DNA of 28,158 bases from a virus: positions 1-28,158 of the IMG/VR virus record IMGVR_UViG_3300031553_000511; one strand, 5' to 3'. Made by a program: the position numbers and the translations under genes. The stretch's first letter is position 1. Every line of letters begins with the position of its first letter. Positions 10,323 through 24,558 of the stretch are shown here, piece after piece. The notes under the pieces are model-generated. The model saw nothing but the letters and a program-made list of their open reading frames with translations. It searched no databases and had not been told where the DNA came from.

Positions 10323-11207
10323 TCAGCTTATGAAGAGGTCTCTCGCAACAAAAGGAGCTTTGAGACTCACAAGATCCTCAATGCCTGAGGGCGTAGCAAC
10401 GTTTTGCCACTTACAGTACTTGAATAATGCAGTGTGCTCACCATTTGCTGGATTATCGCCAAGCCGGAAGGACAAGCTGAACTCACTGTCATTTATTACG
10501 TCATCAAACTCTGTTTTGCTTTCAAACTCGAGTAGAAGTTCGCCGAAAATGTTGCGGTGACGTTCTCGCAAATATTTGAGGAGATGCCCGTTTGAATTTT
10601 GGATAACAGGGACAGCCTTCAAATTGTTTTCAACATTGAATTTCCAATCCGTCACTGTGCTAACCGCTACCAAGTTTCCGCCGTCCGCATCGCCTTTTTT
10701 CACGTAGCTTTCATTATAGGGAACGGCACCAGCATAGTCTCCGTAGGTGGCTCCAGTGATCTTCGCCGTGCCCAGAGCAACGTCTTTGCCGATGAGATCA
10801 ACTGTTCCTTTTATCACGTCTTCAATGCTGCATGACATGCTTAACTTGTCAATTCGGCAGCCCGTGTATAGAAAACTGATGATGTCTGTAGCACTTACCC
10901 ACAAGCCCTTGTAATACAAGACTTGAATGCTCAAGCTGTTTAGTGTTTGAGCATGTTGAATGAAACTTATAGGCGATTCACTGCTTAGGCAATCGCTAAT
11001 TTTCAACGTCACCCTTCGCAATCCTTTACTAATGCTTTGCAGGTCCCGTGAACCAACACCTCTAACCTTGATCAACTGAGGATCCAAGAGGGGCTCCACG
11101 TTTTGAGTGTTAATGCCAAGCATCGAAGGAGTTTCAGGCGTTTCTCCATAGTTTACTTCTTGCACAAAATAGGCGCGGCATTCATGCGTTCCATACGTTT
11201 CAACCAT
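10323..11207 (-). CDS. Major tail tube protein
   Basis: The 294-residue protein has the features of phage tail-tube proteins: an N-terminal region describing the subunit start (CRAYFVQEVNYGETPETP), a mid-protein motif of GCRIDKLSMSCSIEDVIKG (about 116-134) followed by TVDLIGKDVALGT, and a C-terminal FELLLEFESKTEFDDVI-like part. That strand, specified as 'cleft then core', is the hallmark tail-tube signature. It is followed by the chaperone and tape measure genes and preceded by the probable terminator, the standard siphovirus order. The ATG has a strong AGGAGG site. No contractile sheath gene is seen, so the tail is probably non-contractile. Confidence 0.85.
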   Translation of the reverse strand: MVETYGTHECRAYFVQEVNYGETPETPSMLGINTQNVEPLLDPQLIKVRGVGSRDLQSISKGLRRVTLKISDCLSSESPISFIQHAQTLNSLSIQVLYYKGLWVSATDIISFLYTGCRIDKLSMSCSIEDVIKGTVDLIGKDVALGTAKITGATYGDYAGAVPYNESYVKKGDADGGNLVAVSTVTDWKFNVENNLKAVPVIQNSNGHLLKYLRERHRNIFGELLLEFESKTEFDDVINDSEFSLSFRLGDNPANGEHTALFKYCKWQNVATPSGIEDLVSLKAPFVARDLFIS

Positions 11208-11213
11208 TTTTTT

Positions 11214-12170
11214 CTATCCTCCTAACACTTTTTCAAACATCCATGTTTTGACTATGAACTCGGTGCGCCACAAAAACGGTTTAACCCGCACCTGATCTAA
11301 ATCCCGAAAACCCACAACATCACAATAAGTAATTCCGTTAATTGTTACTGTGCAACTTACATAGTCGCAGTAAATCGTTGCTGGGCCTTCACCTTCAGCC
11401 CCGTAAGTGGTTTCCGCGAGAAGGAAAATATACCCGTTTTCATTGATGTACCTTGTCAAGTTCGAAGTTAATGTGATAGTGATTATTTCATCTTCTCCAG
11501 CCGACCCGCTTGCAGACTTGTCCCATGAGGAAGTGGCATCATTCCAGGCTCTTATTACAACACCATTATCAGTGGGAGTAGTGCCGTAACCCTCAAAACT
11601 TAAAACAATTTTTTTAACAGTCTGCTCACGAGATTCAATTTTGAAACGAAACAGCATCATAGCATACTTCGGCGGGTCATCATGTGAATAACTATAACGG
11701 TTATCGTCGCTGTACCAGAGCTTTTCATAATCCGCTGCAGCTAATTCGTTCCATTCAGGCGCTGTCGGAGGCAACAGGCACATTATTGATTTCCCATAAT
11801 AAGCCTTGTGCGGGTCGCCGCTTGGATAGCCTAAACCAGTAAAATCGTAACCCGTAACATTAGGCACAGTTCTCTTCTCTCGAATAATACGGTTAATCTC
11901 CTCACGAAGTTTCTCACGAACATCCCTATCTCTGGACCAACCATTCACTTTCAGAAAGCTTAGACGTCTACGATTAATCCCGTTAAGAGTCAACTTTTGG
12001 TCCTCAGCACGTTGAAGACCCACAGTTACTTGCGCATCATAATTCTTCAAAAGCTCTTGATCATACCATTCTTTGCTACAATAAACACTTGCTAAGCCAC
12101 CGTCATCTTGCACGAGATGCATATTTTGGCTTAGAAGCCGAACAACCGTAGTCACTGGATCCTCAAACAT
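11214..12170 (-). CDS. Probable tail terminator / neck protein with inserted beta-sandwich domain
   Basis: The first about 105 residues (FEDPVTTVVRLLSQNM; VTVGLQRAEDQKLTLNGINRRR; a helix REKLREEINRIIREKR) and the last about 40 (VVGFRDLDQVRVKPFLWRTEF) look like one alpha/beta tail-terminator-type fold. Between them sits a beta-rich insertion of roughly 170 residues (about 107-278) including YAMMLFRFKIESREQTVKK, VVIRAWNDATSSWD and YCDYVSCTVTI, resembling a carbohydrate-binding or adhesion sandwich. Its stop to the downstream tail-tube gene leaves 6 bases, and its ATG overlaps the closure gene's stop by one base. Position between head-closure and tail tube supports the terminator assignment; the insertion's ligand is unknown. 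Confidence 0.65.
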   Translation of the reverse strand: MFEDPVTTVVRLLSQNMHLVQDDGGLASVYCSKEWYDQELLKNYDAQVTVGLQRAEDQKLTLNGINRRRLSFLKVNGWSRDRDVREKLREEINRIIREKRTVPNVTGYDFTGLGYPSGDPHKAYYGKSIMCLLPPTAPEWNELAAADYEKLWYSDDNRYSYSHDDPPKYAMMLFRFKIESREQTVKKIVLSFEGYGTTPTDNGVVIRAWNDATSSWDKSASGSAGEDEIITITLTSNLTRYINENGYIFLLAETTYGAEGEGPATIYCDYVSCTVTINGITYCDVVGFRDLDQVRVKPFLWRTEFIVKTWMFEKVLGG

Positions 12171-13552
12171 TAGCTAACAAGCCTCCTACACAAAGCAGCG
12201 TAATATTGAGGTTCACCTTTGAAACGGAACACTTGAGGCGAGCCCACTTCGTAGTATACACCATTACGCATGATCTTGTCATGATGCCTGATTGGAATCA
12301 GAGTGTAAACCTTAACAAAATCAGTCACCATAAAGCCTGGCTCGATAACAACTTCATCGGGCAACGCAAGCCTAACAACAGCCTTAATCGTTATGCCTTC
12401 CCCATAAGAAACAGTCTCGCCAGATTGAACGATGCTGTAAAGCGTAACGTTTTCGGCGCCAGCATTCAAAACAGGAGTAAAAAGCGTCTTCACAGCCTTA
12501 TACCGCAAAAGCAAAAGACCCAGCCACGAAACCGTGATAATCGACTGCTTATTTTCAACATAGCTCCAATCAAAGAATTTAACGCCCCAAAACATGAACT
12601 CTTCGTAATGCAAGTTCACGATTTGCGCGCTTAACTCAAGACTTGGCTTATCCTTAACTGCTCGAACATCATGCAGAATACCGCTTGTCACACAATCATA
12701 ATAGTCGCAGGCAGACTTGCGTTTCAGAACATCAATGTAGCCAGCCCAACAAATGCTCGAGTTATATCTTGGATAATCAGCACTAGCAGCAATCGTGTTG
12801 ATGAGCTCGTAAACTTTTTCACAGCTTAAACTCCAACCTTCATAATCATACAAGCCGAGCAAAGCATAAGCAATGCAATCATCGTAAATCTCATTCTGAG
12901 ACAAGCCAACACGATGCCACGAAGAGTCAGAAGGATCATAATAAAGCCACAATTTCTCAAAGCCAGCGCGGAGGAAATCTACAGCAGTTTCCATCATCAG
13001 TTCATATTGACTCTTCGCATCTGAGTCATAGCTGCATAGCATCTTGAGACCGATAAGCCCATAGAGACATTCCACATCCATCTTAAGGTCCCAAACATCG
13101 TTAATATCCACAAACCTAGCAAATCCTCCATGGGCCTGTTTGTCCTGCATAGTCTTCAGAAAAGTTTTCCCCGCAAGCACAGCAGCATCCAAATAGTCAC
13201 TGTCACTTGTCAGCTCATACGCTTTCAAAAGCGAAGGAATCACTCGACACGCATCAATGCTATAATAAAAAGTGCTGGTTTCGTTGCTCTTGAAACCGCC
13301 ATAAGCATCCTTCGCGTTATTCACGCACTGCTGAGTTAAAATCCAATCAGCCAACGAGACAATCTTGTTATAGATATCCGTTTGCTTACTTGGGAACTTT
13401 CCACTATTGTAGGCTTCATAAAGAAAATCTATACTGAAAGAGGCAGCTGCAACACCACGCCCAAACGTTAGATCCACACCAGTTCCGGGAATGTAATAGA
13501 AATACGGTGCATAGTCAAGGATAAACTGCAAATAAGCCTCGAGCGCCGCCAC
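12170..13552 (-). CDS. Head-closure protein fused to an alpha/alpha-toroid (glycosidase-like) domain
   Basis: Residues 1-355 are almost entirely paired helices with small turns (IYNKIVSLADWILTQQ; DYLDAAVLAGKTFLKTMQD; GLIGLKMLCSYDSDAKS), including YGGF (84-87) and HGGF (141-144) hairpin motifs. This is the look of an alpha/alpha toroid as in six-hairpin glycosidases, polysaccharide lyases or cyclases. Residues about 365-460 are a head-closure fold: an antiparallel strand set ending VYTLIPIRHHDKIM, GVYYEVGSPQ and YYAALCRRL, like SPP1 gp16 or the HK97 connector. A GTG start follows GGAG at eight bases and abuts the adaptor gene. I see no certain catalytic residues, so enzyme activity or sugar binding is unproven. 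A virion collar decoration is my inference. Confidence 0.7.
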   Translation of the reverse strand: MAALEAYLQFILDYAPYFYYIPGTGVDLTFGRGVAAASFSIDFLYEAYNSGKFPSKQTDIYNKIVSLADWILTQQCVNNAKDAYGGFKSNETSTFYYSIDACRVIPSLLKAYELTSDSDYLDAAVLAGKTFLKTMQDKQAHGGFARFVDINDVWDLKMDVECLYGLIGLKMLCSYDSDAKSQYELMMETAVDFLRAGFEKLWLYYDPSDSSWHRVGLSQNEIYDDCIAYALLGLYDYEGWSLSCEKVYELINTIAASADYPRYNSSICWAGYIDVLKRKSACDYYDCVTSGILHDVRAVKDKPSLELSAQIVNLHYEEFMFWGVKFFDWSYVENKQSIITVSWLGLLLLRYKAVKTLFTPVLNAGAENVTLYSIVQSGETVSYGEGITIKAVVRLALPDEVVIEPGFMVTDFVKVYTLIPIRHHDKIMRNGVYYEVGSPQVFRFKGEPQYYAALCRRLVS

Positions 13553-13906
13553 TTAAGCCACTCCCACGTAGGGCTCAGTTAAGTTTTCAATCATCCGGTC
13601 TAATCGACTTGTCAAAATAGAAAGCGGAGGCACCTGGTTTTGAACCTCAACTCGCAAATCGCCTAGACTGAAACTGCGACCAACAGACGAGCCCCCAGTC
13701 ACATAACAAAGACAATACAAAGCCGCTAAAAGCCGAACAGCAGCAGCCTCACCGTCACTGCAATCGCTATAATCAATTGATAAATCAGTTTCAAGACTGA
13801 CCTCTCCTGCAGCCTGGGTCAAAAACGCGGTAACTTTATCGTCAGCTACATCATCAGCTGTAAGATGCATAAGATCCCGGACACTGTCAGGCGTTACAGA
13901 AACCAA
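13553..13906 (-). CDS. Head-tail adaptor (connector, gp6/gp15-like)
   Basis: The 117-residue protein has the helix-rich adaptor pattern: VTPDSVRDLMHLTADDVAD, then DKVTAFLTQAAGEVSLETDL (about 24-43), AAAVRLLAALYCLCYVTGG (about 54-72) and a C-terminal LTSRLDRMIENL helix. These adaptors bind the portal ring. It begins with TTG behind a GAGG eight bases upstream and is the first gene of the neck/tail operon, with a candidate promoter and repeat array directly upstream. Confidence 0.8.
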   Translation of the reverse strand: MVSVTPDSVRDLMHLTADDVADDKVTAFLTQAAGEVSLETDLSIDYSDCSDGEAAAVRLLAALYCLCYVTGGSSVGRSFSLGDLRVEVQNQVPPLSILTSRLDRMIENLTEPYVGVA

Positions 13907-14502: not shown

Positions 14503-15054
14503 TTAAGACCAAGTTATTTCCCAAGTGATGTAGTCGTAGCCACCTTCAAAGTAGTATGTTTTGGAATACTCATAGATTTGATGCCCGCTGAAAGTTCCTA
14601 TCAAGTGTGCTGGTTCTATATGTTCTCCGCCACCAGTTATATGCCATGTTATTGTGATGGTGACACTGTAAGCAGGGTCGCTTCCGAAGTTTATGAGTAT
14701 TCCTTTTACATCGTGGCTGTCTGTTCCAAATATGTTATTGTGATAAGTGGTTGTTAGCGATGCTGCGACATCAGGCGTAACTCCTCCCGGGTCTCCTTTA
14801 TCACCTTTTGGTCCCGTTGCTCCTGTATCTCCCTTGTCGCCTTTTAGTCCTGTTTCTCCTTGAGGACCCTGTTCACCTTGTATTCCTTGCTCACCTTGAG
14901 GTCCAGTGTCGCCTTTGACTCCTTGTGGTCCTTGTGGTCCAACCTTAACGATTGTGCTGGCGATACCGTAGCTTAGAAGTACGGAAGCGAGAAGAACCGC
15001 TATTAGGCCTATTGCGAAAGCTTTTGTGGATATCCCCACAGTTCCTTCACTCAT
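14503..15054 (-). CDS. Collagen-like surface protein with membrane anchor and beta-sandwich head
   Basis: From an ATG at 15054 behind GTGAT, the protein has a hydrophobic signal anchor ([20 protein letters not shown]), then 17 uninterrupted Gly-X-Y triplets (encoded 14785-14940; GPQ, GDK, GDT, GEQ types with charged X/Y), then a C-terminal beta-rich domain of about 90 residues ([36 protein letters not shown]). Collagen-like repeats form trimeric rods in phage fibres and in prokaryotic surface proteins. The anchor suggests display from the host membrane rather than a plain fibre, unless it is cleaved. Its own TATA box and terminator make it a separate transcription unit within the structural region. 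Confidence 0.85.
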
Positions 15055-15099
15055 TTTTATCACATCTGATTACTGTTAGGGATAATTAAACTATTAAAA

Positions 15100-15696: not shown

Positions 15697-16920
15697 TCAT
15701 GCAGTTTCTCCAGATTCAGCCCCATCACCTTCCTGTTCCCACAATTCCCATCCAAACTTAACCGCGTTTTTACGGAACTCTTCAGGGCGAATCAAGTTTA
15801 ATTCAGCAGCTTTTACAATGTCTGCTAAAACCACCTCGGGAGTTTCGGGAGTGCCCCAGTTAAGGCGAACCTGAGCCTCTGCAGGATCAAATTTCGCCTG
15901 ACGCAAAACAGGATTAAAAATGTCCCTTTCAACTTGACGCTTAACATAACGTTGAATAGGCTTAATCAGCATCTCTTGGAGCTCAAGCGCAGCATTAGCT
16001 GAAGCTTCAGTAAAGCCGGGCGTGCTGAAAAGACGCGGCAAAGGAGTTTCGCAACCGAGATAAAACTGGTTAAGAATATGCTCGATGTAAAATTCAAAAC
16101 GTGCCCTAGGGTCTATTGTGACAGGTTTGATGTCACCTTTCTTGTTGTAGAAAAGCCAAGCACCCTCTTCAGGACGCTTCTTAATAGCTCTCTCAAACTT
16201 CTTGATCGTATCTTCTTTCGCTCCTTCCAACAAAGCCAAAACATCAGGCCCTGCATACTTCTCAAAAATCTTAGGCAAAATCTTCTCAATCTTACTCTTC
16301 ATCCACGCGTAGGCAGGCCTTTTATCAGAATTAACTGTTAAAGTGTGCAACAAAACTTGGAGAATACCGATTCCGAAGCCCTCACTGCCAAGGTAGTTGA
16401 TTCGCCAATGAATCACAGCTTTCGGATCCAGTTCTCCGCCACCATAAGGACTGTTGCGAAGTTTATAACTTTCAATCCTATACGGAATTTTCAGATCTTC
16501 ACTAATGGAACTTTGCGTAATCTTTTCAACAGCGTCTATTGGAAGCCTATGCAAATCTGTAAGGGTCGCAGGAATAAGTCTAAGCCAAAAATCGTTCCCA
16601 CAGGCAATAAGCACACGTGCCATATCACAGAGCAAACCGTCCAAATTCACATCTGCATTAAACTTGTCCACAACTTCCTTAGCTTCCTTCGCCTTTTCAT
16701 ATTTCTCGTTAACTGTCGTGTAGAAGCCTATGCCCGCAGTAGCGCTGGCCAAAAGGTCAACACTAGCCTTACACGTAGGATCCCGCTCATACAACTTCAT
16801 CACATCAACAAGCGGAATATTTGGCCTAGTCTCAAAAACCGTTAAACCCTTAGGGCTCGCACTACCCGAAACACTCCGCCTAACAATAGCCTCATGAATC
16901 TTACGCAAAACACTTGACAT
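15697..16920 (-). CDS. Portal protein
   Basis: The 407-residue protein is a short HK97/SPP1-like portal. N-terminal residues PLVDVMKLYERDPTCKASVDLL (about 35-57) and ACGNDFWLRLIP (106-117) are the usual wing start. The core has VIHWRINYLGSEGFGIGIL (about 167-185), then the crown-side helix KKFERAIKKRPEEGAW, a stem/tunnel-loop region FEFYIEHILNQFYLGCETPLPRLF (about 290-313) with GFTEASANAAL, and C-terminal helix KRQVERDIFNPVLR. The portal ring is the vertex through which DNA is packaged by TerL and on which the adaptor docks. It shares TAATG with the upstream winged-helix gene. Confidence 0.9.
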   Translation of the reverse strand: MSSVLRKIHEAIVRRSVSGSASPKGLTVFETRPNIPLVDVMKLYERDPTCKASVDLLASATAGIGFYTTVNEKYEKAKEAKEVVDKFNADVNLDGLLCDMARVLIACGNDFWLRLIPATLTDLHRLPIDAVEKITQSSISEDLKIPYRIESYKLRNSPYGGGELDPKAVIHWRINYLGSEGFGIGILQVLLHTLTVNSDKRPAYAWMKSKIEKILPKIFEKYAGPDVLALLEGAKEDTIKKFERAIKKRPEEGAWLFYNKKGDIKPVTIDPRARFEFYIEHILNQFYLGCETPLPRLFSTPGFTEASANAALELQEMLIKPIQRYVKRQVERDIFNPVLRQAKFDPAEAQVRLNWGTPETPEVVLADIVKAAELNLIRPEEFRKNAVKFGWELWEQEGDGAESGETA

Positions 16921-23600: not shown

Positions 23601-24545
23601 CTATAATGTGCAGTTGCAGCGGATCTCTTCAGGCAACATTCCAAGCATAAACCGCAATTCGTTCCAGACGTCGACAGTTTCCTTGCACAGAGCAATCGAG
23701 CCTTTGTAACCGTATTTTCTAAGCCAGTAAATTACATATTGGTAAACTTCGACACGATTTTTCAGCCGATATCTCTTATCGCAACAGAGCTCCCGATTAC
23801 CGATGAAGTTATCGAAGAATCTATCGGTGCGGCCTGCACGTTTAAGCCAGTAAGGCAAAGCTGGAAACCATCTTGGTGTTCCGAGTGTAATCCGTGTAGG
23901 CGTCACATACATAATGTCCAGCATGAATTTAATGAGATCTCTGTAAGCCATCTTCCAGGAGTGCGCGTTTCGCGATGATTCCGGCGGCTTCAAAGGAATT
24001 ACAGGGTCAACACGTATTCTAACATCATAACCGAAATTCCCTAGAGTACGAGCTGCCTCCAGACGCTCATATATCCTAGGTGCCCTCTTCTCGTAGAGTT
24101 CAGCGAACTCATGAGCATTAACGCTGAAGCTAACAATAGTTTGCTTGTACCGCTTACGACGTAGAAAATCTATAGATGTGCCCTCTGTAGGATTGAGCGA
24201 CTGCCTTTCTGGCCAGTGGCAGCCTTTAGAAAGCAACAGAACCTTATGCGTCTCTTGCGTTTCAAATTTATCACAAATCTTCTCCATAAACTCCGGATTC
24301 ATCAAGCTGTCAGAGAGCTCGCCAGTATTCAATACAGCAGGCTCTTCGTGAGTCTTAAAGAACTTTTCAATAGCACTTTCTATCCGCTCCCATGAATAGT
24401 AATGCGGCTTCGTACCGTTGAAACGATGAGTCAAAGCAAGATAACAATAACTGCAATCATAAGGACAGCCACGAGCCCACGACAACAAATAGAAATGAGG
24501 ACAAACAACGCCTTCAGGAGTCTTATCAAACAACCTAACACTCAT
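23601..24545 (-). CDS. SPL-family radical SAM enzyme (SplB-like)
   Basis: The 314-residue protein (from ATG 24545 behind GGTGAT) has the radical SAM cluster motif CPYDCSYCY (27-35, C-x3-C-x2-C) directly after a WARG motif. Downstream are ITLGTPRWFP and RYKQTIVSFSVNAHEF-like stretches typical of the COG1533/SPL group, plus the conserved GELSDSL and VDPVIP. Spore photoproduct lyase repairs UV-induced thymine dimers; whether this archaeal homologue does so is not established. In a virus it could repair UV-damaged DNA or modify a nucleoside. It is flanked by zinc-finger genes, 13 bases after the HNH-like gene. Confidence 0.85.
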   Translation of the reverse strand: MSVRLFDKTPEGVVCPHFYLLSWARGCPYDCSYCYLALTHRFNGTKPHYYSWERIESAIEKFFKTHEEPAVLNTGELSDSLMNPEFMEKICDKFETQETHKVLLLSKGCHWPERQSLNPTEGTSIDFLRRKRYKQTIVSFSVNAHEFAELYEKRAPRIYERLEAARTLGNFGYDVRIRVDPVIPLKPPESSRNAHSWKMAYRDLIKFMLDIMYVTPTRITLGTPRWFPALPYWLKRAGRTDRFFDNFIGNRELCCDKRYRLKNRVEVYQYVIYWLRKYGYKGSIALCKETVDVWNELRFMLGMLPEEIRCNCTL

Positions 24546-24558
24546 GTCTATCACCATT

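Follow-up and report, generated by a model that had tools for sequence, protein, structure and literature searches.

We have discovered that the head-closure (stopper) domain of tailed viruses of Bathyarchaeia is encoded in one reading frame with a 355-residue N-terminal domain, which is modelled as an (alpha/alpha)6 toroid. Known stoppers comprise about 100-130 residues, and head-closure proteins are commonly regarded as minimal plugs. In a conserved, uncultured archaeal virus family the plug now proves to carry an enzyme-type domain, and the next ring of the neck is usually decorated too. The neck is hence a possible site of contact with host glycans in archaeal viruses, and the fusion offers a testable way into the question of how viruses meet the poorly known surface of Bathyarchaeia cells.

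The DNA examined (the window) comprises positions 1 to 28,158 of IMG/VR record IMGVR_UViG_3300031553_000511 (28,158 nt, one strand). The features of its neck region are as follows.

10323..11207, minus strand: tail tube protein (Pfam Phage_tube_2, E 1.9e-13)
11214..12170, minus strand: predicted tail terminator with an inserted CBM-like jelly roll, 318 aa (AlphaFold2 pLDDT 93.7; structural matches of the core)
11343..11861, minus strand: predicted inserted jelly roll of the terminator, residues about 104-276 (Z scores to the phi812 baseplate and CBMs; missing in 11 relatives)
12170..13552, minus strand: toroid-stopper fusion protein, 460 aa, stop included, GTG start (in-frame in 84/85 IMG/VR relatives)
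12173..12487, minus strand: predicted head-closure (stopper, SPP1 gp16-like) domain, residues 356-460 (Foldseek, PDB 8hdr_A, PHROG 939, L172 homologue)
12488..13552, minus strand: predicted (alpha/alpha)6 toroid domain, six helical hairpins, residues 1-355 (AlphaFold2; VIA-align; Pfam C5-epim_C)
13553..13906, minus strand: adaptor (portal-proximal connector) gene (PHROG 302, head and packaging, E 8e-4; upstream neighbour of the fusion in nearly all loci)
15697..16920, minus strand: portal protein (Pfam Phage_portal, E 4.7e-5)

Reading frame and neck gene cluster

The fusion gene is read from the minus strand, with a GTG start at 13552 and a stop codon at 12172-12170, and encodes 460 residues in one continuous ORF. 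An earlier note on this DNA had placed a two-domain neck protein at 12170-13552 and quoted the peptides DKIMRNGVYYEVGSPQ and YYAALCRRL; the coordinates are correct and both peptides are present in the protein, as is the motif GGF at residues 85-87 and 142-144. The GTG start is directly abutted by the stop codon of the adaptor gene, and the stop codon of the fusion gene overlaps the terminator start as TAATG; the fusion gene is therefore part of a tightly packed structural cluster. The order adaptor, fusion, terminator, tube was found in 145 loci (some of them duplicate fetches) and was partial at contig ends in most others, in agreement with the neck position that had been claimed for the gene.

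Searches of IMG/VR found 15 relatives with a protein query and 135 with an alignment query, 80 of which were kept, and the 85 loci fetched encode proteins of about 55-91% identity to that of the window. In 84 of these loci toroid and C-terminal domain share a single open frame, as the earlier note had held for the window, and neither chance nor sequencing error accounts for it; in the sole exception (L014), whose sequence contains ambiguous bases, the frame is broken. The same fusion was found in Bathyarchaeia genomes as proviruses, including in a record titled chromosome. An artefact of assembly or annotation, or two genes run together, would have nothing in its favour beyond the rarity of the fusion outside this virus group, and it is already refuted by the continuous frame in these contigs and in chromosomal provirus copies, so that we give it practically no credence.

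Several other genes of the window were recorded. A collagen-like protein of Gly-X-Y repeats, hydrophobic over a stretch at its N-terminus (14503-15063, minus strand; Pfam Collagen, E 9.7e-10), is encoded between the portal and adaptor genes and is a possible virion fibre. At the edge of the virus contig (200-1744, minus strand) one gene encodes an ABC-type ATPase together with a domain resembling GNAT acetyltransferases, and a radical SAM protein resembling spore photoproduct lyase is encoded at 23601-24557 (minus strand).

Proviruses, distribution and separability of the two modules

The carriers of the fusion are tailed viruses of Bathyarchaeia. The toroid profile matches 44 of 257 Bathyarchaeia-class genomes, of which we count 38 as strong matches, and the fusion gene can serve as a marker gene for these viruses. 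The A05DMB-2 host genome contains seven matches, its lineage having several of the proviruses, and one of its loci, L093, is on the same contig as BATPV1, a provirus already published (PMC11705971). The fusion is under strong purifying selection, with dN/dS of 0.05-0.21 for the toroid and about equally low values for the stopper domain. A tblastn search with the fusion protein against 50,697 annotated phages returned no match, and PHROGs held no convincing family for the full-length protein.

No stand-alone toroid gene was found in the Bathyarchaeia genomes, where strong matches were fusion-length frames unless cut by a contig end or broken. Candidates for toroid-only genes were rejected: L173-L175 are weak matches to cellular proteins, and L178 (4387-5667) is what remains of a provirus, with its first ~100 toroid residues joined to a tail protein through a deletion. 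Four fusion proteins (L176, L141, L112 and L180; 539-555 aa) are lengthened by an insert of some 70 residues close to the N-terminus of the toroid.

In a sister provirus (L172/L181) the adaptor gene is followed, in the same order, by those for a free-standing stopper (about 110-125 residues), a terminator of 153 residues with no insert and a tail tube, and the toroid is absent. Since the same neck occurs there with a stand-alone stopper and no toroid, toroid and stopper are separate modules, and this provirus is the strongest evidence for modularity. A stopper-like domain was also seen outside a virus neck. In one genome (G059; L182:7327-9411), the C-terminal ~95 residues of a host topoisomerase VI subunit B form a homologue of the viral stopper domain (E 2.6e-18). 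No other of the 257 class genomes showed this fusion, which represents either domestication, an integration relic or an assembly error.

Predicted folds and conserved residues

The AlphaFold2 model of the fusion protein was built from an alignment of 15 sequences and is of moderate confidence (mean pLDDT 69, pTM 0.76). It comprises 12 helices in six hairpins (residues 2-350) followed by a beta domain, and the loops that hold many of the conserved residues are its least certain part. VIA-align matched the toroid to six-hairpin barrels at Z 16-18 over 252-298 residues. Most of these are glycoside hydrolases or sugar epimerases, and the matches include GH76 mannanases, GH88/GH105, 2-epimerases, terpene cyclases and complement thioester domains. 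Residues 1-350 are thus modelled as a member of the (alpha/alpha)6 six-hairpin superfamily, and the model upholds the alpha/alpha-toroid that the earlier note had proposed for residues 1-355.

The nearest sequence family of the toroid is C5-epim_C (PF06662), matched by 65 of 87 non-redundant members at E <= 0.01 (best 5.1e-6), followed by GH88 (5 of 87); both families consist of (alpha/alpha) barrels that act on uronic acids. The similarity to them is weak and covers only part of the domain. The window protein scores 21.2-22.0 bits against C5-epim_C, just under the cut-off of 23.3 bits, which two relatives exceed (25.5-25.6 bits). In a PDB sequence search, human and zebrafish C5-epimerase were the top toroid matches, at only 0.008-0.015, and profile alignment to two cellular C5-epimerases of Bathyarchaeia was weak (hhalign probability 5% and 1%). 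The catalytic residues of human GlcE are E499, Y500, N510, Y560 and Y578 (PMC13308652). Inspection by eye of the alignable part revealed no catalytic motif of the GlcE type, in a profile alignment too weak for these residues to be placed (hhalign probability 5%), and no set of catalytic residues could be assigned to the toroid. The toroid was not accepted as a true C5-epimerase: the fold matches while similarity to the enzyme families is weak, and it is therefore designated a member of the fold and assigned to no enzyme family.

Conservation was tabulated over 87 non-redundant toroids. Invariant residues include R103, W212, R214, D224, D225, Y263, W269, Y272, Y285, D286 and W322. Positions at least 95% conserved make up 31 of 97 in the second helices, 33 of 128 in the long loops of one face, 18 of 100 in the first helices and 17 of 110 in the stopper domain. 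Many of the invariant residues are acidic, basic or aromatic and are located in the long loops of one face and at the starts of the inner helices. Such a pattern would be expected if one end of the barrel formed a cup for a ligand, and a plain spacer would not need it.

The C-terminal ~100 residues are, on predicted structure, a head-closure (stopper) protein. Foldseek rows from BFVD for residues 356-460 are annotated as head-to-tail stopper, closure knob, head-tail joining and Gp16_SPP1 (TMt up to 0.71), and a neck chain of Pam3 (8hdr_A, TMt 0.62) was matched in the PDB. Among PHROGs, family 939 (head protein) matches 30 of 40 stopper-domain members (best 3.6e-9), and families 161 and 8797 (head closure Hc1) match members at 0.005-0.007. 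The stopper domain of the window protein, searched alone, matched no PHROG family, and a PDB sequence search with stopper profiles gave nothing or chance matches only. The connector fold that had been read into residues 365-460 is supported by the BFVD rows, by 8hdr_A and by PHROGs 939 and 161.

The protein at 11214..12170, modelled from 58 sequences, is predicted to be a tail terminator. Its core aligns at Z 15.0 with HFTV1 tail chain 9fkb_Pa, 12.7 with T5 p142 and 10.9 with T4 gp15. These alignments comprise 138-147 residues spread over residues 1-318, and the insert is therefore skipped by the core matches. The insert itself, which the earlier note had overlooked, is a predicted jelly roll of the CBM type; it matches phi812 baseplate 9eui_D at Z 13.8, CBM29, CBM61, CBM16 and CBM22 at about 8, and sugar-binding domains of GH2 at 8-9. 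A WD-40 match of the terminator profile was considered spurious, as no single stretch was significant. The insert is cleanly missing from an otherwise continuous terminator in 11 unique relatives; its apparent absence in L051, L087 and L089 is disregarded, as these are contig-end fragments. The 11 include L002, with a fusion protein 88% identical to that of the window. Inheritance of the toroid and the CBM-like insert always together was thus rejected; the toroid is nearly always present, the insert is optional, and the two are not strictly coupled.

Proposed function and comparison with known neck proteins

We lean slightly towards a toroid that binds glycans of the host surface, and perhaps modifies them, as part of a neck collar beside the CBM-like jelly rolls. 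The C-terminal domains would make up the ring by which the head is sealed beneath the adaptor, and the barrels fused ahead of them would stand out round the neck, about six copies making up the collar. The open face of each barrel, with its invariant acidic, basic and aromatic residues, may bind sugars of the host surface and possibly epimerise or cleave them, uronic acids being the best guess. In most relatives the toroid would work beside the CBM-like jelly roll on the next ring, that of the tail terminator. The data show the fusion, the position of its gene, its conservation, purifying selection and the separability of the modules, and give both folds as predictions; that the toroid is exposed on the virion, its number of copies, its ligand and any catalytic role are inferences. 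A glycan is the best guess for the ligand because of the sugar-enzyme relatives of the toroid and its CBM-like neighbour, and glycan binding, which the earlier note had proposed, is plausible on the indirect evidence of the conserved residues on one face and of sequence similarity to C5-epim_C and GH88; against this, the toroid fold is common to proteins that do not handle sugars, such as terpene cyclases and complement thioester domains.

Portals and adaptors are 12-mers, and a ring of about 12 toroids had been pictured in the earlier note. This number is not supported: in long-tailed phages both the stopper and the terminator form hexamers (PMC12886913, PMC10276861, PMC10747895), and six toroids with six jelly rolls are thus likelier, by analogy, than twelve. 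The N-terminus of the R4C stopper contacts the adaptor (PMC10276861), and the N-terminal toroid would therefore probably lie near the adaptor-stopper junction.

A bolder form of the glycan reading makes the head-closure ring itself an enzyme, in which six glycan-epimerising or -cleaving barrels and the CBM-like domains would form a two-part collar that helps the virus to reach or leave the cell; we regard it as rather doubtful. A narrower form, in which the toroid is a former enzyme that acts as a glycan lectin only, for reversible first contact with the host surface, is likewise tentative. GlcE catalytic residues are not evident in the alignable part, and those lactococcal neck modules that have been tested serve for binding (PMC6669499), whereas the invariant acidic pair D224-D225 and D286, located where second helices begin, would be as suitable for catalysis as for binding. 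The toroid may instead be structural, locking the adaptor-stopper junction or anchoring whiskers with no sugar ligand, in the manner of the stopper decoration proteins of phage 812. In that phage the stopper bears a beta-sandwich domain on its outside, and the neck may be strengthened by separate decoration proteins (PMC12886913); retention of the toroid in all viral relatives found but one would befit an assembly part. However, the residues on the conserved face resemble those of a ligand site more than those of a spacer, the sister virus builds the same neck with no toroid, and the nearest sequence families are sugar enzymes; we consider a structural collar unlikely. Handling of a lipid or isoprenoid, such as the isoprenoid membrane lipids of archaea, is suggested by terpene cyclase folds among the matches at Z 16, but sequence similarity was found to C5-epim_C and GH88 and none to terpene cyclases, and we judge this role very improbable.

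In the literature searched, no stopper fused to a toroid and no terminator with a CBM was found, in line with the earlier note, which knew of no virus neck protein of this build; absence there is not proof. The main texts of two papers on Bathyarchaeia viruses mention neither head closure nor a toroid (PMC10848311, PMC11705971). The stoppers of SPP1 (gp16), Pam3 (8hdr_A) and Corynebacterium phage EmiRose resemble the C-terminal domain in fold (predicted here), in size and in place in the neck gene order, and differ in that 355 toroid residues precede the stopper domain here. The stopper of Staphylococcus phage 812 (gp97) also carries an extra external domain, although a beta-sandwich rather than an enzyme-type toroid (PMC12886913). 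The neck passage structure of lactococcal phages 936 and TP901-1 likewise displays carbohydrate-binding modules round the neck, and that of 936 is a precedent for glycan modules at this site; these are separate fibre proteins with a BppU-like anchor, whereas the module described here is in-frame with the stopper (PMC6669499, PMC10747895). The turrets of HFTV1 are a precedent for glycan modules on the head of an archaeal virus: the turret head protein bears a galactose-binding-like domain and a predicted sugar-enzyme domain on an archaeal tailed virion and is proposed to make the first contact with surface glycans, but it is located on capsid turrets and its enzyme domain is deacetylase-like (PMC12494034).
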